Shown: in pieces, positions 4,369 through 19,379 of the stretch
Layout of the letters: every line of letters starts with the position of its first letter
How positions within the stretch are numbered: the stretch's first letter is position 1
DNA from: Propionibacteriaceae bacterium
GTDB taxonomy: Bacteria > Actinomycetota > Actinomycetes > Propionibacteriales > Propionibacteriaceae
Direction: 5' to 3'
Assembly (NCBI GenBank): GCA_030532575.1
Contig: JAUNKV010000022.1
Coordinates: forward strand, 1-48,708
DNA: 48,708 bases
Made by a program: the position numbers and the translations under genes
The notes under the pieces: generated by a model
What the model was told of the DNA's origin: nothing
Database searches by the model: none
The model's input: the letters and a program-made list of their open reading frames with translations, nothing else

Positions 4369-7005
<2,637 letters not shown>

Positions 7006-8274: not shown

Positions 8275-9174
8275 ATGGCACGCAACATCTTCGCCGGGTT
8301 CCTGGGCATCCTGGCATTGCTCACCGGCCTGATCGGCGTGTTGCTGCAGTGGGTGAACCACGCGGCCCGCGACCCGCAGCTGACCGAACAGGTGGCGGTC
8401 GCCGTGGCGAAGGACCCGACGGTGCACGCGGCCATCTCCTCCGAGGTGACGACCCGGCTGGCGGGGGCGTTGCAGCAGGCCAAGCTCCCCGGTGAGCTGC
8501 CCTACGCACAGATCAAGGAGGAGCTCACCGCCGCCCTGCACTCAGCCGTCCAGGAGGTGCTGGCCGACCAGGGGGTCGATACCACCTGGCGCACCGTGCT
8601 GTCCCAGACCCGCGAGCAGCTGGTCACGGACCTCGACGCCTGGCGCAGCGGCGACCCCGCCCCTGAGGTCAAGCTGAACCTCGCCCCCGTCGCCACGCTG
8701 GTGGTCGATGAGGTCAAGGCCGAGGGGGGCCACGTCGTCGCCGTGATCGCCGAGCACATCGAGGTCCCCGAGACGATGATCGTGGCGGGGACACAGCTGG
8801 ACGACCGGATCGCACGTGTCGCCTCCCCGGTGCTGCAGCTGGCCCAGCTGTGGCCCGCCTTCATCGTGCTGGCCGTGGTGCTGGTGGCCCTGGCCGTGGC
8901 CTTCGCCCGCTCCAGTACTCGGCCCGGGACGCTGATCCGAACCGGGCTGGGTGCTGTCGCCGTGACCCTGATGCTGCGGCTGATGGTGGGTCAGGTCTCG
9001 CTCAGCGGACAGAGCGGCCTGGCCCAGACGATGGCGGCCGTGGGGGTGAAGCAACTCACCTCGTCGCTGTCCCAGGCGCTGCTGCCGCTGCTGTGGGTCG
9101 GCCTGGCCGTCACCGTCGTGGGGCTGGTGTGGTGGTTCATCCGACGTCGCGGAGCTGTTCGGCGAGGTCGTTGA
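8275..9174 (+). CDS. Integral membrane protein with large extracytoplasmic region
   Basis: A 299-residue protein; GGAGG lies 6 bases before the ATG. TM1 covers about residues 5-26 (FAGFLGILALLTGLIGVLLQ). A hydrophilic region of about 160 residues follows, then three hydrophobic segments near 195-213 (LWPAFIVLAVVLVALAVAFA), 221-235 and 268-286, ending in an Arg-rich tail. This single-TM, large loop, TM-cluster layout is common among uncharacterised actinobacterial membrane proteins. The stop overlaps the convergent dinB-like gene by 38 bases. Confidence 0.75.
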   Translation: MARNIFAGFLGILALLTGLIGVLLQWVNHAARDPQLTEQVAVAVAKDPTVHAAISSEVTTRLAGALQQAKLPGELPYAQIKEELTAALHSAVQEVLADQGVDTTWRTVLSQTREQLVTDLDAWRSGDPAPEVKLNLAPVATLVVDEVKAEGGHVVAVIAEHIEVPETMIVAGTQLDDRIARVASPVLQLAQLWPAFIVLAVVLVALAVAFARSSTRPGTLIRTGLGAVAVTLMLRLMVGQVSLSGQSGLAQTMAAVGVKQLTSSLSQALLPLLWVGLAVTVVGLVWWFIRRRGAVRRGR

Positions 9175-10033: not shown

Positions 10034-10981
10034 ATGACCGATCCGACCTCGCGGGCGCTCAGCCTGCTGGGCCTGCTGGAGAGTCGTTCGGTGTGGACCG
10101 GGGCAGAGCTGGCAGAGCGGCTCGGGGTCACGTCCCGCACCCTTCGTCGTGACGTGGAGCGGCTGCGTGACCTCGGCTACGTCGTCGAAGCTGATCCGGG
10201 ACCGGGTGGCGGATATGCGCTGGGGCGCGGTCAGGTGGTGCCGCCGCTGCTGCTGGACGAGGAGCAGGCCGTGGCCGTGACCCTGGCGCTGACCCGGGCC
10301 GCCCAGGCCACGACCGGACCCGAGGCCGAGGCCGCGCTGCGGGCGCTCAGCACCATCGATGCGATCACCCCGTCGGCGCTGCGGCACCGGTTGGCGTCGC
10401 TGCGGGAGTCGTCGACGGTGACCCCGCTGGGGGAGGGTCCCAGCACGCAACTGCTGCTGACCTCAGCTGATGCGATCCACCGTCGGCTGCGACTGCGGTT
10501 CGGCTACCGGGATCGGCACGGTACGGAAACGGCGCGTCACGTGGAGCCGCACCGGATGGTTGCCCGAGCCAGGTCGTGGCTGCTCATCGCCTTCGACCTG
10601 GACCGCGACGACTGGCGCACCTTCCGCATCGACCGGATGCGTGAGGCTGAGGTCAGCACCTGGCGGTTCGTTCCCCGGCCCGGTCTGGAGCAGGTGCTGG
10701 CGGGGCTCGACGATCCTGTTCCGCCGTCGGCGTGGCGGCACCAGGTGGAAGTCCACATCCACGCCCCTCACGCGCAGGTGCAGGCTGCGCTGCCCCGCGG
10801 TGCCGGTCAGCTGCGACCCCTGGACGAGAACACCACCGAATTCCTGGCCGGGAGCGACGACCCGACGACGGCGGCCTGCTGGCTGGCCCGGCTGGGCTTC
10901 GACTTCACGCTGTTGGGGGACGACGACGTGGTGGCCGCCGTCGCTGATCTCGCGGAGCGGCTACGCCGGGCCGTGGGCTGA
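10034..10981 (+). CDS. WYL-domain HTH transcriptional regulator
   Basis: A 315-residue regulator. Residues 5-60 form a DeoR-type winged helix (LAERLGVTSRTLRRDVERLR as recognition region; the wing contains GPGGGYALG). Residues about 150-230 form a WYL-like sensor domain (HRRLRLRFGYRDRHGTETAR, then WLLIAFDLDRDDWRTFRIDR). WYL proteins bind nucleic-acid or nucleotide ligands and control neighbouring genes; the divergent dinB-like gene is the obvious candidate target. The stop overlaps the convergent GyrB-like gene by 21 bases. The promoter region has been remodelled by an R1 insertion. Confidence 0.9.
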   Translation: MTDPTSRALSLLGLLESRSVWTGAELAERLGVTSRTLRRDVERLRDLGYVVEADPGPGGGYALGRGQVVPPLLLDEEQAVAVTLALTRAAQATTGPEAEAALRALSTIDAITPSALRHRLASLRESSTVTPLGEGPSTQLLLTSADAIHRRLRLRFGYRDRHGTETARHVEPHRMVARARSWLLIAFDLDRDDWRTFRIDRMREAEVSTWRFVPRPGLEQVLAGLDDPVPPSAWRHQVEVHIHAPHAQVQAALPRGAGQLRPLDENTTEFLAGSDDPTTAACWLARLGFDFTLLGDDDVVAAVADLAERLRRAVG

Positions 10982-11809
10982 GTGGGTCCCGATCTCCTCA
11001 ATGAGGCTGCGCACCACCTCGGCGACGGCGGCATCGTTGAGACGGTCCTTCGTTGCCCCGGCGTAGCTCGGCTGGGGTGAGTCCACCGCGATGACGACGG
11101 CCAGGCCGTCGGGCAGGAGGTCGCGGTCATCGACCAGGGCCTCGCGCAGGGCGTCCTCGTGGCTGCCGCCGCCCCGGGTGCGATGCCGGTTGACGAAGCT
11201 CAGCAGCCGCGCGGGCCAGCGCGTGGCGCATCTCAGCGTGACCTCCACCGTGATGCCCGATGCCTCGTCATGGTGCCGGATGCGTACCGGCTCGTGGCGC
11301 ACCGGACCCATGCCCTCGCCCAGCGCGGCGACGCAGTCGGTGAGGCCCCCGGGGCTGTGCCACTGCTGCTCCAGCGACGGCGCGCGCAGCCGGATCGTCG
11401 CTCCCGGGTGGAGCCAGGCGAGCTCCTGCAGCCGGGAGACCAGACCCGGCACGTCGAAGGCGGTGAAGAAGGCCTCGTCCAGCTCGGCTTCGACCTCAGG
11501 TCCTGCCGGATCGCCCGCCACCCGCACCCGGGCCTTGTGGCTGAGCGCCAACAGCACCCCGAGGCCTCCCCACCCGCCGTCGAAGGACACCTGGTACAGC
11601 TGCTCGGGGTGGGGAAGTGGGCCGTCGTGGCGCACCGTCACCGCCAGCCCCGGGCCGAGCTCCACCTCGACGCACCCGGCCCCCACCCCCAGGGCCGGCT
11701 CCACCACCTGCTCCAGCACCAACCCCGTCGCCCCGGACTCCCCGACATACATCCCGGGCCTACGACGGATCAGGTCACGCTGCTTTGTCACCGTTTCATC
11801 CTGTTGCAT
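10961..11809 (-). CDS. GyrB-like ATPase/transducer paralog, lacking TOPRIM
   Basis: A 282-residue protein resembling only the N-terminal half of GyrB. RRRPGMYVGE (about 15-24) matches Gyr[23 protein letters not shown] stands at the [15 protein letters not shown] lid, GGGSHEDALREAL at [13 protein letters not shown], and SYAGATKDRLND at [11 protein letters not shown]. The Glu of [10 protein letters not shown] has a counterpart (LEQVVEPALG), but the Mg-binding Asn is replaced and DNGRGIP is eroded to HDGPLP. It has no TOPRIM or C-terminal domain, so it cannot be a gyrase subunit by itself. It lies 9 bases after DUF721, the usual site of gyrB. Confidence 0.75.
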   Translation of the reverse strand: MQQDETVTKQRDLIRRRPGMYVGESGATGLVLEQVVEPALGVGAGCVEVELGPGLAVTVRHDGPLPHPEQLYQVSFDGGWGGLGVLLALSHKARVRVAGDPAGPEVEAELDEAFFTAFDVPGLVSRLQELAWLHPGATIRLRAPSLEQQWHSPGGLTDCVAALGEGMGPVRHEPVRIRHHDEASGITVEVTLRCATRWPARLLSFVNRHRTRGGGSHEDALREALVDDRDLLPDGLAVVIAVDSPQPSYAGATKDRLNDAAVAEVVRSLIEEIGTHSAHGPA

Positions 11810-11818
11810 TCCCAGGAC

Positions 11819-12340
11819 TCACCCGTACGTGTCGCGAGGTCCTCGGCCCGGCACCGAGCGACGGCCCTTCTTCCAGCTGGGCGCGCGGGGACCCAGGAAC
11901 TCGATGCGCAGCACCGAGCGGTCGCCCAGCTCCCGGTTGAGGCGGGCCACCAGCGCACTCGCGTTGAACTTCATCGCCGAGGCCCAGGCCGTTGAGTCAC
12001 ACTGGACGGTGAGCACGCCGTCAAGGAACTGCACCGGTTGCGAGTGCTCGGCGTTGGCCTGACCGACGAGCCCCGCCCAGTCACGCAACACCATCGACAA
12101 CGACAGCTGCTTGCGCCAACCCCGTCGCTTGGCCACCCCCTCCAGCACCGAGCCGATCAGCTGCGGGTCGCGGTCGTCGGGATGGGCCCCGGAGCGCTGC
12201 TCGCCTGCGAAACGACGACGCTTGGGCACCTTCGGCGGCGGCGCGGCGGGGGCCTCGGGCAGCAGCGGCGAGGTGCGGGCCACCTGGTGCGCGATCTCCG
12301 CAGCCAGGTCCAGCCCCGTCGGGTCGTGGGACTCACTCAT
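11819..12340 (-). CDS. DUF721 (DciA-like) protein
   Basis: A 173-residue DUF721 protein. Residues 60-160 carry the conserved domain (LIGSVLEGVAKRRGWRKQLS; MVLRDWAGLVGQANAEHSQP; FLDGVLTVQCDSTAWASAM). The N-terminus is a Pro-rich variable region. DUF721/DciA proteins help load or operate the replicative helicase, and in Actinobacteria the gene normally follows recF directly. Here its ATG overlaps the vapC stop (ATGA), so it is now translationally coupled to an inserted toxin gene. Confidence 0.9.
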   Translation of the reverse strand: MSESHDPTGLDLAAEIAHQVARTSPLLPEAPAAPPPKVPKRRRFAGEQRSGAHPDDRDPQLIGSVLEGVAKRRGWRKQLSLSMVLRDWAGLVGQANAEHSQPVQFLDGVLTVQCDSTAWASAMKFNASALVARLNRELGDRSVLRIEFLGPRAPSWKKGRRSVPGRGPRDTYG

Positions 12341-12735
12341 GTCAGCCGTACCCTCCGCACATCGGTGTGGGTGAAGTCGTCGCCGACGAACAGCAGCGGC
12401 TCATCCAGATCAATGGCCAGCGCGTAGGAGAAACAATCTCCCATGTTCAACCGAGCAGGCGAGCCGGAACCCGGGCCGTAACGACGGTGCGCCATCCGGG
12501 CCAACCTCGCCTGCTGCACCGAGAGCGGGACGAGGATGATGCCGAAATCGTCGATCATCGCATCGAGTTCATGCTGGTTCTGCGCAGAAAGTCGACGATC
12601 CGCAACCACCCCCAACTCAACCCAAGTGGCAGCTGACATGTGGAGCCTGCTCGCAGAATTCAAATGCTCCCCAAGCTTCTGATACCCCAGTTCCTTCAGG
12701 GTCAACGCAATCATCACCGACGAGTCCACGATCAT
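12337..12735 (-). CDS. vapC: VapC-family PIN-domain toxin
   Basis: A 132-residue PIN nuclease. Acidic active-site candidates are Asp4 (MIVDSSVMIA), Glu40 (ATWVELGVV), Asp100 (NMGDCFSYALA) and Asp119/Asp120 (FVGDDF), in the order and spacing of VapC toxins, which cleave RNA such as initiator tRNA or rRNA. It overlaps the antitoxin stop by 4 bases (ATGA) and the DUF721 start by 4 bases. The module interrupts the recF-DUF721 pair, so it is probably an acquisition. Confidence 0.9.
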   Translation of the reverse strand: MIVDSSVMIALTLKELGYQKLGEHLNSASRLHMSAATWVELGVVADRRLSAQNQHELDAMIDDFGIILVPLSVQQARLARMAHRRYGPGSGSPARLNMGDCFSYALAIDLDEPLLFVGDDFTHTDVRRVRLT

Positions 12736-12989
12736 CGCGGCAACCCATCCTCGTCGTAAATCTCCTGATCGACGTTGCGCAGGGCCTCACGCTCCTCATC
12801 GGTCATGCTCGCGTGAATTCTGTCGATGGCAGCCATCACCCGCTCGTAGCGCTCCTGTCTGCGCTGCTCCTCGCTGTGGAGCAGCTCCTGCAGCGCCTTC
12901 TCGATCACCTCGACCTGGGTCGTGTTGAACCGGTCGGCTGCTTCACGGGCCAGGTCGCAGACTCGCTGATTCTTGATGTTGAGGGCCAT
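12732..12989 (-). CDS. vapB: VapB-family antitoxin
   Basis: An 85-residue antitoxin starting MALNIKNQRVCDLAREAADR, the typical N-terminal ribbon-helix-helix/PSK-type DNA-binding segment of VapB proteins. A charged helix (ELLHSEEQRRQERYERV) follows, then a toxin-binding tail ending YDEDGLPR. The last 34 codons are repeated almost exactly at the end of recF (13028-13138). It probably autoregulates the vapBC operon. The 38 bases before the start do not show a clear promoter. Confidence 0.88.
   Translation of the reverse strand: MALNIKNQRVCDLAREAADRFNTTQVEVIEKALQELLHSEEQRRQERYERVMAAIDRIHASMTDEEREALRNVDQEIYDEDGLPR
12740..12842 (-). repeat. Direct repeat, antitoxin copy
   Basis: About 103 bp nearly identical to 13036-13138, offset by 296 bases with only a few mismatches. 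It covers the vapB 3' end. The identical core runs through CTCCTGATCGACGTTGCGCA to GAATTCTGTCGATGGCAG. Confidence 0.9.
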
Positions 12990-13027
12990 GAAGAGATGTT
13001 ACACCTGCAGGAAAAATAGATACACCC

Positions 13028-14293
13028 TCAGCGGGGAAGCCCGTCCTCGTCGTAGATCTCCTGATCGACGTTGCGCAGGGCCTCACGCTCCTCATCGGTC
13101 ATGCTCGCGTGAATTCTGTCGATGGCAGCGATCACCCGGCGCTGCCGATCCTGCTGCAGCTCGACGGTGCCCGCCTCGACCCGGAACCGCCTGGCCGAGG
13201 GGAAGTCCGGGACATCGGCCCCGACGGCGGCGGTGATGAGCACCTGCTCGGCGTCGGCGATGGCCCCGGCCAGGCGTTGCCTGCGGTCGGTGTCCAGCTC
13301 GGCGAACACATCGTCGAGGACCAACACCGGCTCGGTGCCGTCGGAGCGCACCAGCTGGAACCCACCGAGCTTCAGCGCCAGCGCCAGCGACCACGACTCC
13401 CCGTGCGAGGCATAACCCTTCGCCGCCAGCTCCCCGATGCCGAGCTCGATGTCGTCGCGCTGCGGCCCGATCAGGGTCACCCCGCGGGCGATCTCGTCGC
13501 GCCGCCTGTCCTCCATCGCCGCCAGCAGCCGGGCCTCCAGCGTGCCGCGCACGTCATCGATGGGGATGCCCTGCAGGTTCAGGGAGGTCTTGTAGTGCGC
13601 AGTGATCGTGTTGTTCACCGGCGCGATGGTGCGGTAGGCACCGACGGCGTGGGGGAGCACGTCGGCCAGGGTGTCGAGCCGCGCGTGCAGCAGCTCCGCC
13701 CCGATCCTCGCCAACGCCTCGTTCCACGCCTGGAGCGTGATCTCCTCCTCGGGCTGGGCCTGTCTCAGCGACCGCCCGGACATCGCCTTGAGCAGGGAGT
13801 TTCGCTGCTTGAGAATCTTGTCCAGATCGGCCCGAACCCCGGCCATCCTGGGCCAGCGGGTGGTGACCAGGGTGTCCAGCCAGGCGCGACGATCAGCAGG
13901 GTCACCGCGCACGATGGCCAGGTCCATGGGCGAGAACACGACGGTGCGCAGCGCACCCACCAGGTCGCGGGGTCGCGGCAGGGGAGCCCGGTTCAGGCGA
14001 GCGACGTTGCTGCGGCCATGGGTGACCTCCAGCTCCAGCTGGATCAGACGCTCATCCTCACGGGAGGCCTGCACCGTGGCCCTGAGGATGGCGGACTCGG
14101 CCCCGGCCCGGATCAGCGGGACGGTACTGGACACGCGGTGGGAGGACATCGTGGAGAGGTATTCGACGGCCTCGACGAGGTTCGTCTTGCCCTGCCCGTT
14201 GGCGCCGACGAACACGTTGACCCCCGCCACCAGGTCCAGCTCGGTGGCGGCGTGGTTGCGGAAGTCGGTGAGCGACAGGTGAGTGACGAACAT
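13028..14293 (-). CDS. recF: DNA replication/repair protein RecF with VapB-derived C-terminal tail
   Basis: A 421-residue SMC-like ATPase that loads RecA at gaps. Walker A is GANGQGKTNLVEA (about 30-42). The ABC-like signature region is SHGESWSLALALKLGGF, and Walker B/D-loop is VLVLDDVFAELDTDRR. The ATG at 14291-14293 gives the canonical MFVTHLSLTDFRNH start. Family proteins usually end soon after the segment VPDFPSARRFRVEAGTVELQ. Here about 34 extra residues, from VIAAIDRIHASMTDEEREAL to DGLPR, copy the VapB tail. The ATPase core looks intact, so RecF is probably functional. Confidence 0.93.
   Translation of the reverse strand: MFVTHLSLTDFRNHAATELDLVAGVNVFVGANGQGKTNLVEAVEYLSTMSSHRVSSTVPLIRAGAESAILRATVQASREDERLIQLELEVTHGRSNVARLNRAPLPRPRDLVGALRTVVFSPMDLAIVRGDPADRRAWLDTLVTTRWPRMAGVRADLDKILKQRNSLLKAMSGRSLRQAQPEEEITLQAWNEALARIGAELLHARLDTLADVLPHAVGAYRTIAPVNNTITAHYKTSLNLQGIPIDDVRGTLEARLLAAMEDRRRDEIARGVTLIGPQRDDIELGIGELAAKGYASHGESWSLALALKLGGFQLVRSDGTEPVLVLDDVFAELDTDRRQRLAGAIADAEQVLITAAVGADVPDFPSARRFRVEAGTVELQQDRQRRVIAAIDRIHASMTDEEREALRNVDQEIYDEDGLPR
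13036..13138 (-). repeat. Direct repeat, recF copy
   Basis: Second copy of the vapB 3' end, fused in frame to the recF coding sequence so that recF uses the antitoxin's stop context. Identity ends at GATCACCCG on the recF side. The few substitutions (for example CCGTCC for CCATCC) show the duplication is recent. Confidence 0.9.
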
Positions 14294-14369
14294 CACCATC
14301 GATCCTAGATGACCCACCTGTCGGTGTTGAACCATCACTTCTCCGACGATTCAGCACCAGCCGGACCAA

Positions 14370-14683: not shown

Positions 14684-15844
14684 TCAGTCGGGCAAACGCA
14701 TCAGCATGATGACGTGTCGGTAGTCCAGCAGCTGGTCGCCGTCGATGCTGGCCAACCCGGTGATCAGGCACGGTTTGCCGGGTTCGGTGAAGGAGAAGTG
14801 GGCATAGGGGGCGTCCACGGCCCCGAGCGCATCCAGCAGGTAGTGCGGGTTGAACCCCGCCGCCGTGATGGACTGCTCGCTGCCGACGATGTCCACCTGT
14901 GCCTCGATGGCCTCGGAGGCATGTGCCTGATCCCCCGTCGCCGCCTCCAGCGCGATGTGATCCGACTCGATCATCATCCGAAGCGGGGTGTTGCGCTCCG
15001 CCACCAGCGACACGCGCTTGACCGCGGCCAGCAGTTCCGCCGTCGGCACCCTGACCGTCACGGTCCCCACCACGTCCATCAGGTGACGGACCTTCGGGAA
15101 GGCCTGGTTCAGCAGTCGAGTGGTGGCCTCACGACGACCCTTCGCGCCCTCACCGATGAAACCGACGAGCCCCTCACCCTCCGACTCTGTGGTGGACAGC
15201 GACACAGTGACGCTCTTGCCGGAGGTCAGCGACTTCGCGGTGTCGGCCAGCACCTTCCCCGGGACCAGCACCGCGCCCTCGATGTCAGGCGACGACGGCG
15301 CCCAGGTCAGTTCCTTCAACGCCATCCGGTAGCGGTCGGTGGCCAGCAGCGACAGCTGATCGCCGTTGATCTCCACCCGCACCCCGGTGAAGACGTTGAG
15401 CAGCTCGTCGCGTCCCGCCGCGATGACCACTTGGCTGACGGCCTTCTCGAAGACGTTGGCGTCCACCTCACCGGTCTGCGTCGGCATCTCGGGCAGGTTC
15501 GGGTACTCCTCGACAGGGAGGGTCTGCAGGTTGAATCGGGCCGAACCGCAGGTCAACTCCACCTGGGTGTGGTCGGCGACCATGTCCACCGGCTTGTTCG
15601 GCAGCTGCCGGGCGATCTCGTTGAGCAGTCGTCCCGAGACCAGCACCGTGCCCTCGTCGGTGACCTGGGAGGGCATCGTCACCTGCGCTGAGGTGGTGGA
15701 GTCGAAGCTCGACAAGGTCACCTCGTCGCCCTCGGCGGTGATGAGCAGCCCCGCAAGGATCGGTGCTGTGGGCCGGTTCGGGAGGCTGCGGGCCACCCAG
15801 GCAACAGCGTCGGCAAGAGCATCGCGCTCCACTCGGATCTTCAC
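14684..15844 (-). CDS. dnaN: DNA polymerase III beta clamp
   Basis: A 386-residue sliding clamp starting MKIRVERDALADAVAWVARS. Length and motifs match DnaN (LVSGRLLNEIARQLP, VFTGVRVEINGDQLSLLATD, NPHYLLDALGA). It tethers the replicative polymerase and is a landing site for repair factors. It normally follows dnaA directly; here an ABC transporter pair intervenes, although strand and order are kept. Confidence 0.97.
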   Translation of the reverse strand: MKIRVERDALADAVAWVARSLPNRPTAPILAGLLITAEGDEVTLSSFDSTTSAQVTMPSQVTDEGTVLVSGRLLNEIARQLPNKPVDMVADHTQVELTCGSARFNLQTLPVEEYPNLPEMPTQTGEVDANVFEKAVSQVVIAAGRDELLNVFTGVRVEINGDQLSLLATDRYRMALKELTWAPSSPDIEGAVLVPGKVLADTAKSLTSGKSVTVSLSTTESEGEGLVGFIGEGAKGRREATTRLLNQAFPKVRHLMDVVGTVTVRVPTAELLAAVKRVSLVAERNTPLRMMIESDHIALEAATGDQAHASEAIEAQVDIVGSEQSITAAGFNPHYLLDALGAVDAPYAHFSFTEPGKPCLITGLASIDGDQLLDYRHVIMLMRLPD

Positions 15845-15930: not shown

Positions 15931-18477
15931 TCACTCGGTCGCGATGGAGTCCAGGACGTTCATCCGCGCGGCCCTCCTGGCCGGCAGGATCGCGGCCAGC
16001 ACCCCGACGAAACCGGAGACCACCACGAAGATCACGAGCTCGCTCCACGGCACATCCAGCACCTCCAGGTCAGGGATGACACGCACCAGGGCGGTACCGA
16101 AGCCAACGCCGAGGATCACGCCGAGCACGGCCCCCAACAGCGCCACCGCGACAGCCTCCAACCGCACCATGAGCCGCAGCTGGGGTCGGGTCAGCCCGAC
16201 GGCGCGCAGCAGCCCGATCTCCCGCGTCCGTTCCAGCACCGACAGCCCCAACGTGTTGACGATGCCGAGCACCGAGATCACGATGGCCAGGGCGAGCAGC
16301 CCGTAGATGATGCCCAGCAGAGTGTTGAACCGTTCCAGCCGTTCCTTGGTGAACTCCTCGTTGTCCACCACCGAGACCAGCGGATGATCGGCGGTTGCAT
16401 CCCGCAGCTGCTGCTTCACGACGGCCAGATCGGTACCGTCGCTCACATCGACCTTCACCACACTGAACGACTGGGCGTCCCCGATCCGGGGGAAGGTCTG
16501 CTGGTTGGTGACCAGCTCCGCGATCCCACTCGGCGCGTCCTGGCCGTCGATGATGCCCGTGACCAGCAGCTCGACGGGGTTGCCGTCGATTCCGGGCACG
16601 GTGAACTTCTTGCCCATCGGCAGGTCGAGTTTCTGGGACAGCTCGTGATCGATCATCACCGATCCGGGGGTCTCCAGCAGCTCACCGGCCAGGATTTTCG
16701 TCGCGCTTCCCAGCGTCAGCCCCTCCGGGCTGGTTCCGGTAATCCCGTACGGATCGCCCTCACCGATGGAGATCGCCGACTGCGAGTAGGACCACACTGC
16801 CTGCACCCCGTCGATCTGTTCCAGCCGTTTCACGTCCACGCTGAAAGGCCGGTAGTTGACCGGGGTCATGAGAAAGTCGCCACGCTGGTCCTCGGCCAGG
16901 GTGGAGCGCATCGTCGCGGTGGCGGTGGCCGCGAGGATCGCGATGGTGCTGACCAGGGTGAGCCCGATCATGAGGGTGGCTGCGGTCGCGGCAGTGCGAC
17001 GGGGCTGCCGGTCCACGTTGAGGTTGGCCATCCGACCGACCTCACCGAACAGCGTCGAGTTGATCCTGCCTGCGACCCACAGGATCGGAGCGCCCAGCAC
17101 CGAGGCCGAGAGCACCGCCCCCATGAGCACCAGGATCGCCCCGCAGGCCACCCACCACAGCCGTTCAGGGATCGGGAAAAGCGCGCCACTGATGACGGCA
17201 GCGGCCCCGAGCTGGACCATCGCCAGGCCGAACCAGGCGGGCAGTCCGATCCCCTCGGGGGCGGTGGCTGCGGCCTGGATCATGGCCTCGATGGGACGGG
17301 TGCGGGAGGCACGGATGGCTGGGAGCAGGGCCGCGATGACCGTGACCACCAACGCCGTGCCGTAGCAGATGAGCACCATCTGCCAGGTCACTTGGGGTTG
17401 GGTGGTGCCCAGGTCGATGCCGAAGGTGTTCATCAGGGTGAGGATCAGCCAGGCCAACCCATAACCCGCAGCGATGCCGAGACTCGCCCCGATCAGCGCG
17501 ATGACGACGGCCTCCAGCAGCACTGCGGAACGCACCTGGGAACGCTTGGCCCCGAGCGCCCGGTACAGCGCCAGCTCCTTGCTGCGCTGCGAGACCAGGA
17601 TGGAGAAGGTGTTGAGGATGAGCAGGGAGGCCACCAGCAGGGCGATGCCGGCGAAGATCAGCAGGAAGGTGTTGATGAAGCCGAGCCCGACCTCCAGTTC
17701 AGCACGGATGTCCTCGGCCAGGCTGGGGCCGTCCTTCGCCTCGAAACCGTGGGGCAGCAGCGGTTGGATGTCCTTGGCCAACTGTGCCCGGTCCACGCCA
17801 GGATCGCTCTGCAGCCACACCCCGGTGTAGCCGTCAGCCCCGTTCAGGGCCATCTCCTGCATCGCGGGCAGGGTGAAGAACAGGTAGGCGGCCCCGGAGG
17901 TGGAGCCCTCGCCGTAGGTGGCGGTGCCCACCACCGTGAACTCCCGCATCCCGCCGCGAGGTGTGGCGATCTGGATGGCATCGCCCACTGCGTGGCCGGA
18001 TCGTTTGAGTGTTCCCGGGTCGAGGGCCACCTGGTCGTCGGCAGTTGGAGCGACGCCGTCGATCACCCTCATCCCGACCATCCCGTCCATGGCGGGGATG
18101 TCGTCGAAGTTGACGGCGATGCCCGGCGCACCACCGAGGGTGACCACGCGCCCGTCGCGGTCCATCGGGTAGACCGAGGGGTTGCTGACCAGTCCCGCGA
18201 CCCGCTTCACCCCTGGCGTGGTCCTGATCTGCTCGACGACGTCGGGTTGGAGCATCAGGGCATCGGGGCGTTGCCCGCTGCCCAGCTCGAATCCACCCTC
18301 GAGCAGGACGTTGACGTCCCCGACACTGGATTTGAGGATCTGTTCGTAGGCCGAGCCGAGCAGATTGGTGAACATCAACGACCCGGCCACGAAGGTGATG
18401 CCGAGCACGATGGACAGGGCGCTCATGAGCAGCCGGAGTTTCCGGCCGAGCAGGGACTTCCAGGCGGCACGCAGCAT
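15931..18477 (-). CDS. ABC transporter permease with two FtsX domains (MacB-like)
   Basis: An 848-residue permease, ATG at 18475-18477 chosen because GGAG lies 6 bases upstream; a GTG 6 bases earlier has no spacing. TM1 near the N-terminus (LMSALSIVLGITFVAGSLMF) is followed by a large extracytoplasmic MacB-PCD-like domain. A first FtsX block of three TMs (NTFLLIFAGIALLVASLLIL), a linker with TMs, a second periplasmic domain, and a second FtsX block (LLALAIVISVLGIVNTLGLS; EIGLLRAVGLTRPQLRLMV) complete it. Such transporters export lipoproteins, peptides or lipids, or transmit mechanical force. It is coupled to the ATPase gene. Confidence 0.9.
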   Translation of the reverse strand: MLRAAWKSLLGRKLRLLMSALSIVLGITFVAGSLMFTNLLGSAYEQILKSSVGDVNVLLEGGFELGSGQRPDALMLQPDVVEQIRTTPGVKRVAGLVSNPSVYPMDRDGRVVTLGGAPGIAVNFDDIPAMDGMVGMRVIDGVAPTADDQVALDPGTLKRSGHAVGDAIQIATPRGGMREFTVVGTATYGEGSTSGAAYLFFTLPAMQEMALNGADGYTGVWLQSDPGVDRAQLAKDIQPLLPHGFEAKDGPSLAEDIRAELEVGLGFINTFLLIFAGIALLVASLLILNTFSILVSQRSKELALYRALGAKRSQVRSAVLLEAVVIALIGASLGIAAGYGLAWLILTLMNTFGIDLGTTQPQVTWQMVLICYGTALVVTVIAALLPAIRASRTRPIEAMIQAAATAPEGIGLPAWFGLAMVQLGAAAVISGALFPIPERLWWVACGAILVLMGAVLSASVLGAPILWVAGRINSTLFGEVGRMANLNVDRQPRRTAATAATLMIGLTLVSTIAILAATATATMRSTLAEDQRGDFLMTPVNYRPFSVDVKRLEQIDGVQAVWSYSQSAISIGEGDPYGITGTSPEGLTLGSATKILAGELLETPGSVMIDHELSQKLDLPMGKKFTVPGIDGNPVELLVTGIIDGQDAPSGIAELVTNQQTFPRIGDAQSFSVVKVDVSDGTDLAVVKQQLRDATADHPLVSVVDNEEFTKERLERFNTLLGIIYGLLALAIVISVLGIVNTLGLSVLERTREIGLLRAVGLTRPQLRLMVRLEAVAVALLGAVLGVILGVGFGTALVRVIPDLEVLDVPWSELVIFVVVSGFVGVLAAILPARRAARMNVLDSIATE

Positions 18478-18479
18478 GG

Positions 18480-19379
18480 TCACTCCGTGATGGCTCGACG
18501 CGGGGCGCTCTGCTCCGCCTCCGTCTCGGGGTGGATCTCCCCCGACGGGCCAGGCTGCATCGAGCCGTCGCGGAACAACGGCTCACCGTCGATGCGAGGC
18601 TGTGGGGAGGTGGCGGGATCGTCGTCGTCAGTTGTGGTCTTCGGCGTTTCGTGACGGGGGTAGATGCGCGACATGGTGTGCATCACTTCCTCCGGGGTAC
18701 CGCCGCGCTGGTCCTCGACGATGCGGCCGTCGGAGAGGAAGACCAGGCGGTCGGCGTAGCTGGCGGCCACCGGGTCATGGGTGACCATGACGATCGTCTG
18801 GCTGAAGTGCTCCACGGAGCTGCGCAGGAAGCTCAGCACCTCGGCGGCCGAGGTGGAGTCCAGATTGCCGGTGGGTTCATCGGCGAACACGATGTCAGGG
18901 CGGTTCATCAGCGCGCGTGCGCAGGCCACGCGCTGCTGCTGGCCACCGGAGAGCTGGTGCGGTTTGTGGTTGAGGCGTTGCGTCAAACCGAGGATCTCAA
19001 CGATCTGGCCGAACCACCGCTTGTCGATCTTGCGTCCCGCGATGGTCAAGGGCAGCACGATGTTCTCGCGCGCGGTGAGGGTGGGGACCAGGTTGAAGGC
19101 CTGGAAGATGAAGCCGATGCGGTCACGACGCAGCATGGTCAGGTCCGTGTCGCTGAGGGTTGCGATGTTGACCTCCCCGATCTGGACGATGCCGGAGGTG
19201 GGGGAGTCGAGCCCGGCCAGCAGATGCATCAGCGTCGACTTGCCAGAGCCCGAAGGACCCATGATGGCGGTGAACTCTCCTGCCTGGACCTCGAAGTCGA
19301 CTCTGTCCAGTGCGACCACGGTGGCACTGCCCGTGCCGTAGGTCTTGTGGAGTTTGTCTGCTCTGGCTGCGATGGTCAC
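18480..19379 (-). CDS. ABC transporter ATP-binding protein (LolD/MacB type)
   Basis: A 299-residue ATPase from a GTG at 19377-19379 (VTIAARADKLHKTYGTGSAT); no clear ribosome site precedes it, so it may be leaderless, and an upstream ATG (19433) remains possible. Walker A is GPSGSGKST, the Q-loop lies in FIFQAFNLVPTLTARENI, the signature is LSGGQQQRVACARAL, Walker B is PDIVFADEPTGNLD, and the H-loop is MVTHD. An acidic C-terminal extension of about 55 residues (TTTDDDDPATS...) is unusual for the subfamily. Its stop immediately precedes the permease start. Confidence 0.9.
   Translation of the reverse strand: MTIAARADKLHKTYGTGSATVVALDRVDFEVQAGEFTAIMGPSGSGKSTLMHLLAGLDSPTSGIVQIGEVNIATLSDTDLTMLRRDRIGFIFQAFNLVPTLTARENIVLPLTIAGRKIDKRWFGQIVEILGLTQRLNHKPHQLSGGQQQRVACARALMNRPDIVFADEPTGNLDSTSAAEVLSFLRSSVEHFSQTIVMVTHDPVAASYADRLVFLSDGRIVEDQRGGTPEEVMHTMSRIYPRHETPKTTTDDDDPATSPQPRIDGEPLFRDGSMQPGPSGEIHPETEAEQSAPRRAITE

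Follow-up and report, generated by a model that had tools for sequence, protein, structure and literature searches.

A VapB-derived tail on RecF and the history of the adjacent vapBC module in a Propionibacteriaceae bacterium

How does a housekeeping protein such as RecF come to end in the C-terminal part of an antitoxin encoded beside it, and could the added piece act on the cognate toxin? The question is raised by a minus-strand locus in the window (the whole stretch of 48,708 nt that was analysed) of a Propionibacteriaceae bacterium, in which the genes follow each other in the order dnaN, recF, vapB, vapC, dciA/DUF721 (Table 1). The reading in which we have good, though not full, confidence is that the 3' end of vapB was copied onto recF through microhomology and has been carried since as a tolerated scar, a near-neutral extension of RecF.

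Table 1. Features of the recF-vapBC-dciA locus in the window
Feature	Position	Strand	Evidence or remark
dnaN	14684-15844	-	upstream of recF
recF, including the fused tail (last 35 codons and stop)	13028-14338	-	NCBIfam TIGR00611, 264 bits (cut-off 172)
RecF tail, fused copy of vapB codons 51-85 and stop	13028-13135	-	101/108 nt the same as in vapB
Tail stretch of 74 nt identical to vapB 12760-12833	13056-13129	-	0 differences; likely gene-conversion tract
Two GGTGTAA-type direct repeats ahead of vapB	12999-13005 and 13020-13026 (span 12999-13026)	-	likely left edge of the module; putative operator/promoter
vapB, antitoxin, frame intact	12732-12989	-	Pfam PF07704, 58 bits (cut-off 28.3)
Source copy, vapB codons 51-85	12735-12839	-	repeat and ORF translation
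vapC, toxin with PIN domain, frame intact	12337-12735	-	Pfam PF01850, 54 bits; VapC30 match
dciA (DUF721)	11819-12340	-	Pfam PF05258, 79.8 bits

The locus and the fused copy

The first-pass annotation had described vapBC as wedged between recF and dciA, two genes that are usually adjacent, and this agrees with our survey, in which dciA lay within 150 nt 3' of recF on the same strand in 88 of the 119 loci holding a recF 3' end, a set in which some places, the window's own locus among them, are counted more than once through overlapping copies. The reported overlap of vapC with the start of dciA amounts to 4 nt, and the vapB and vapC frames themselves overlap at 12732-12735, with the PIN toxin directly downstream of the antitoxin. 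VapC matched VapC30 of PDB 4xgq with an E value of 1.2e-19, and carries the acidic residues D4, E40, D100 and D119/D120 (read by eye), which we take to be the PIN acidic motif; the NCBIfam profiles gave no match for VapB and none for VapC. A second, weak PF07704 match was seen elsewhere in the same genome (G000:C49:48580-48732; 26.5 bits, below the cut-off; positions 33-82). As to the wider surroundings, dciA is followed by a gene for a short GyrB-like protein of 282 residues (10961-11809, minus strand; TIGR01059, 83.8 bits, far below the cut-off of 882), a full gyrB is found at 4372-6315 of the window, another contig carries a second GyrB/ParE-like gene, and directly upstream of dnaN there is a large ABC-permease-like gene (15931-18483, minus strand) that matched the ADOP, MacB and FtsX models, all below their cut-offs.

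A repeat search placed a direct repeat at 12727-12857 and 13023-13153, with a spacing of 296 nt and 88% identity over 131 nt. The near-exact repeat at this offset and its in-frame fusion to recF, both proposed in the first-pass annotation, are borne out: over the fused part, which covers VapB residues 51-85 and the stop codon, 101 of 108 nt are identical between the copies, one run of 74 nt being unbroken, and the recF frame (13028-14338, minus strand) ends in ...RQRRVIAAIDRIHASMTDEEREALRNVDQEIYDEDGLPR and the stop, so that the last 35 residues of RecF are a copy of the C-terminal part of VapB. Judged by its length, a near-exact repeat of about 100 nt would be far beyond chance. RecF residues 19-370 matched the NCBIfam model above its cut-off, and six PDB RecF chains also matched, reaching RecF residue 369-372; because these matches extend that far, nothing of the conserved part of RecF is missing, and the protein has been lengthened by the tail and not truncated. 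For VapB residues 1-41 RecF has no matching stretch, the near-identical copy beginning at residue 51; the DNA-binding/dimerisation half of the antitoxin thus appears to be absent from the tail.

Distribution among relatives and the order of events

RecF was found in all 60 related genomes, the named neighbours including Microlunatus (59%) and Cutibacterium (58%). Among the 39 genomes of the genus, one per species, 11 gave some match to VapB, and a match restricted to its C-terminal half (residues 42/43-85) was confined to two, the window's genome (G000) and a sister species (G034), which were also the only such cases in the 198 genomes of the family; a weak match to VapB 22-85 (23.7 bits) was obtained in G035. 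Of 32 genus RecFs, 30 could be parsed; these end 1-65 residues past the GTV anchor, with VapB sequence in G000 and G034 only, while the RecFs of G003 and G011, missed by the GTV pattern, have 3 and 9 residues there. Since RecF C-termini vary to this extent within the genus, the tail is presumably tolerated. A 44-residue tail query, short and therefore of low power, matched only G000 itself among 394 genomes of the class, and a survey with PF07704 across 296 genomes of the class did not pick up even the tail in the window, hence being blind to other VapB-tailed genes. In the open-licence PMC literature, no report of such a RecF/antitoxin fusion was found by title or abstract start among the matches listed.

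Two further ideas on the origin of the module were discarded. That the recF-dciA gap is a general hot spot for toxin-antitoxin genes found no support: 14 regions behind recF in which dciA is not reached within 150 nt were translated and, judged by eye, showed no vapBC-like pair (13 of these regions come from the 30 listed exceptions in which the gap is long or dciA is lacking; L018 or L130 is included). Nor did a scan of viral contigs for a phage origin of vapB yield a confirmed relative, although it returned 28 pattern matches.

The order of events can be read from three genomes. In a protein tree of RecF built from 32 of the 39 genus genomes and four outgroups, G000 and G034 group together (support 100/96), with G023 as their next relative (100/97); G062, G005, G004 and G002 form a likely sister group (99/96), the fork joining both groups being weak (81/59). 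In G023 an intact vapBC separates recF from dciA, and RecF, which has no tail, finishes with EQRV before the stop. As the module stands there at the same site beside an ordinary RecF end, vapBC was present before the tail, and the earlier proposal that capture of the module had replaced the recF 3' end is not supported: the tail came later, as a separate event, and was added on. The fusions of G000 and G034 agree in their joint; moreover, tail codons 30 (GAC) and 33 (CCC) are common to both tails, and both vapB genes, those of G000 and G023, have GAT and CCG, which argues for one fusion event. The fusion itself and its presence in two species can be read directly from the sequences.

At the corresponding site G034 has no vapB, and only 55 nt separate the recF stop from dciA. 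This gap matches vapC 3' sequence at 17 of 17 nt and at a further 39 of 44 nt running into the dciA start, and because such a remnant persists, G034 would have lost the module and kept the tail; it is best read as a case of later loss of vapB and nearly all of vapC with the tail retained. In the first-pass annotation, a relative lacking vapBC and showing the same tail had been named as evidence against its reading. G034 formally fits that description, but the vapC remnant points to a later loss of vapBC.

Further genomes bear on the mobility of the module. In G004 and G002, relatives of this vapBC follow recF at a distance of about 3.6 and 2.7 kb, respectively. By eye, their surroundings (L113 and L114) consist of an ABC-transporter-like gene pair on one side and, on the other, a membrane protein resembling the product of window gene 8275-9174. 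G062 has an ordinary recF-dciA junction at the native site and also, about 112 kb from its native recF (L132, 1506-1853), a recF 3' fragment and, behind it, vapB up to residue 65, from where the gene runs into another frame of about 150 residues. Over 93 nt the displaced recF fragment shares 90% identity with the native recF of this genome, which suggests that vapBC once adjoined recF in the G062 line too.

Formation and later evolution of the tail

Counted from the vapB start, GGTGTAA-like direct repeats lie at -16 and -37/-38 in the four closest intact modules (G000, G023, G004 and G002), whereas the more distant vapB of G017 has repeat sites at -16 and -9 only and the broken copy of G062 has none. 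In L112-L114 and at window 12999-13026 these conserved repeats are 21-22 nt apart. Shortly before the vapB ATG there is also TAACAT or TAAAAT, presumably a promoter motif, which suggests a leaderless promoter. In two different genomic settings the left repeat seems to coincide with the left boundary of the module. In G023 it reads CGGGTGTAA and encodes the last recF residues, RV, and the stop, and in G000 it begins one base past the stop of the tail. The hexamer CGGGTG is found at the end of recF in G023, within G000 vapB at the start of the copied part, and at the fusion joint; G023 vapB lacks it at the corresponding place. At the second (3', return) joint of the copy no clear microhomology was seen, and for that reason the return step of a template switch is something we infer.

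The course of events may be pictured as follows. In the ancestor of G000, G034 and G023, vapBC would already have separated recF from dciA. Later, before G000 and G034 parted, about 105 nt of the vapB 3' end would have been copied ahead of the module, the joint forming at the short shared CGGGTG, since the module's left repeat resembles a stretch within vapB of G000. The simplest and best-fitting mechanism is a local template switch or break repair that, with this microhomology as primer, would have passed from the recF end into vapB, along to the vapB end and back to the module edge, giving RecF residues 51-85 of VapB together with the vapB stop codon. The extension would have been borne as a near-neutral tail; G034 would afterwards have lost vapB and most of vapC, its tail drifting, and in G000 the two copies of about 100 nt would have exchanged sequence by gene conversion, which kept the tail VapB-like. 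Within this account, the template switch, the near-neutrality and the absence of a VapC-related role are what we infer.

Conversion in the G000 line is indicated by two observations. Between tail and vapB of G000, 0 of 74 nt differ at 13056-13129, where the two tails differ from each other at 8 places; the chance of no difference in 74 nt is p 0.0002 at the tail-to-tail rate and 0.016 at half that rate. In addition, tail and vapB of G000 agree in silent states at codons 7, 13 and 15 that neither the G034 tail nor G023 vapB shows. Taken together, the sequence comparisons give strong support to the order of events, to module loss in G034 and to homogenisation in G000.

Signs of selection on the tail point both ways. 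Between G000 and G034, the RecF body shows pS 0.359, pN 0.035 and dN/dS 0.073, and the tails pS 0.300, pN 0.061 and dN/dS 0.17; the tail frame is still open despite the 36% silent difference in the body, which counts against near-neutrality, and the last nine codons (IYDEDGLPR) differ between tail and vapB at six nucleotides and at no residue. When changes in both tails were polarised by eye with the two vapB genes, about 5 replacement and 5 silent changes were counted, and the neutral chance of so many silent changes is p 0.05-0.13, depending on transition bias, which leans towards constraint; leaving out codon 2, an uncertain silent change, shifts the value to 0.12-0.24, and counting codon 6, likewise uncertain and likelier a G000 change, shifts it to 0.02-0.07. 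Conversion from vapB can, however, mimic constraint on the G000 tail. On the G034 tail branch, also read by eye, four of the replacements (S>N, D>G, N>T and Y>H) stand against one to three silent changes, as expected without constraint (P 0.19-0.82), and residues common to G000 and G023 vapB, including the Y of YDEDGLPR, have been replaced. The replacement count of the tail falls within the range of the RecF body, where 11% of 350 overlapping windows of 35 codons have at least 5.

Other origins for the repeat were weighed against this account. A tandem pair of vapBC modules followed by a deletion, in which recF joined the first vapB at CGGGTG, the first vapC was lost and the second module stayed intact, would produce the same final order with the same microhomology, and a direct recF-to-vapB deletion would also yield the G034 order; however, this requires more steps, and the VapB search of the 39 genus genomes showed no two neighbouring complete copies of this vapB, so we regard it as possible but rather improbable. 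The repeat could also have arisen with the insertion of vapBC itself, through a long duplication of the target such as has been proposed for restriction-modification genes, whose insertion is described with long, variable duplications (PMC3031569); the duplicated piece belongs to vapB, though, and not to the recF/dciA target, and G023, with vapBC at the same site and no repeat, contradicts the idea, which is thus highly improbable. An assembly artefact or collapsed repeat, a concern raised by the first-pass annotation, found no supporting point in our data of one genome per species, and because a separate genome, that of the sister species G034, shows an identically joined fusion with many nucleotide differences, it is very unlikely, indeed nearly negligible. 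The microhomology-mediated copy is therefore the origin that we retain for the tail.

Possible binding of VapC and comparison with known systems

According to PMC8341153, helix 49-62 of VapB30 contacts VapC30, and a peptide of residues 52-59 (ELAAIRHR) disrupts the VapB30/VapC30 complex by 43% at tenfold excess. VapB and VapB30 align only weakly (E 0.13), and in that alignment V51, where the tail starts, falls opposite E52 of VapB30, the first residue of the peptide, with 52-59 corresponding to VapB V51-I58. The RecF tail, which covers VapB 51-85 and lacks the N-terminal half, contains this weakly aligning segment, and as it starts where the VapC30-binding peptide aligns, binding of VapC by the tail, an idea of the first-pass annotation, is plausible; a putative toxin-binding segment is what it would then carry, in line with the first-pass suggestion that the toxin-binding part of VapB had been copied. 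In an AlphaFold model of RecF (mean pLDDT 85.9; from a 28-sequence alignment in which no other row had YDE or GLPR), residues 398-412 and 415-428 are predicted as helical after the last RecF strand, with a pLDDT of 60-88 for the block. In the VapB30 work (PMC8341153 and PMC10526153), the antitoxin-mimicking peptide freed toxin activity instead of blocking it, and growth arrest is reported for a peptide that contains this helix, so that binding of VapC need not mean its neutralisation.

The leading functional rival of a near-neutral scar is a tethered antitoxin, in which VapB 51-85, held by RecF, binds VapC and buffers or places the toxin at sites of replication and repair, or makes loss of vapBC harmless. 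Besides the position of the tail start opposite the competing peptide and the two predicted helices, it could draw on the close relationship of the window's VapC to VapC30, on the conserved residues of IYDEDGLPR and on G034 having lost vapBC while carrying the tail. Against it stand the toxin-freeing and growth-arresting peptides just cited, the replacement in the G034 tail of residues common to the G000 and G023 vapB genes, the ambiguous signal of selection on the tail (about 5 replacement and 5 silent changes, p 0.02-0.24), conversion, which alone accounts for the VapB likeness of the G000 tail, and the restriction of the C-terminal-half match to 2 of 39 genus and 2 of 198 family genomes, and we hold a tethered antitoxin to be unlikely. 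A bolder form, according to which RecF, as a protein encoded in the gene cluster of the replication origin, would bind VapC through its tail, buffer the toxin and let the cell lose vapBC unpoisoned, an anti-addiction device born of a fusion that G034 would already have used and now be losing, is more doubtful still.

With the near-neutral scar as the preferred reading, the locus offers an ordered natural series, in which the module came in, the antitoxin end was copied onto a core gene, the module was lost and the tail drifted, and it would show that a toxin-antitoxin module can leave the toxin-binding end of its antitoxin on a housekeeping protein. Should the tail bind VapC, this would be a simple route to host immunity against a chromosomal module; should it not, the locus would be a clear example of toxin-antitoxin modules scarring core genes, and the trio of G000, G034 and G023 makes the question directly testable.

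Among known systems, the module is closest in build to VapBC30 (Rv0623/Rv0624 type), with which it shares a PF07704 antitoxin, a PIN toxin, overlapping genes and the C-terminal half of the antitoxin as the toxin-binding part, but its VapB is only weakly alike (E 0.13) and RecF bears an additional copy of that half. RecF itself agrees with TIGR00611 in its complete conserved part and in its place beside dnaN, and differs in 35 extra antitoxin-derived residues, whereas other RecFs of the genus end 1-65 residues past the anchor in other sequence. If the tail neutralised VapC, loss of the module would be harmless, as with the anti-addiction antitoxins of the ccdEch model; those (PMC2654758) are complete chromosomal toxin-antitoxin systems or antitoxins, and here there is a fused fragment only. 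A selfish gene pair beside a direct repeat of about 100 nt is likewise a feature shared with restriction-modification insertion (PMC3031569), although in the present locus the repeat originates from the module and not from the target.
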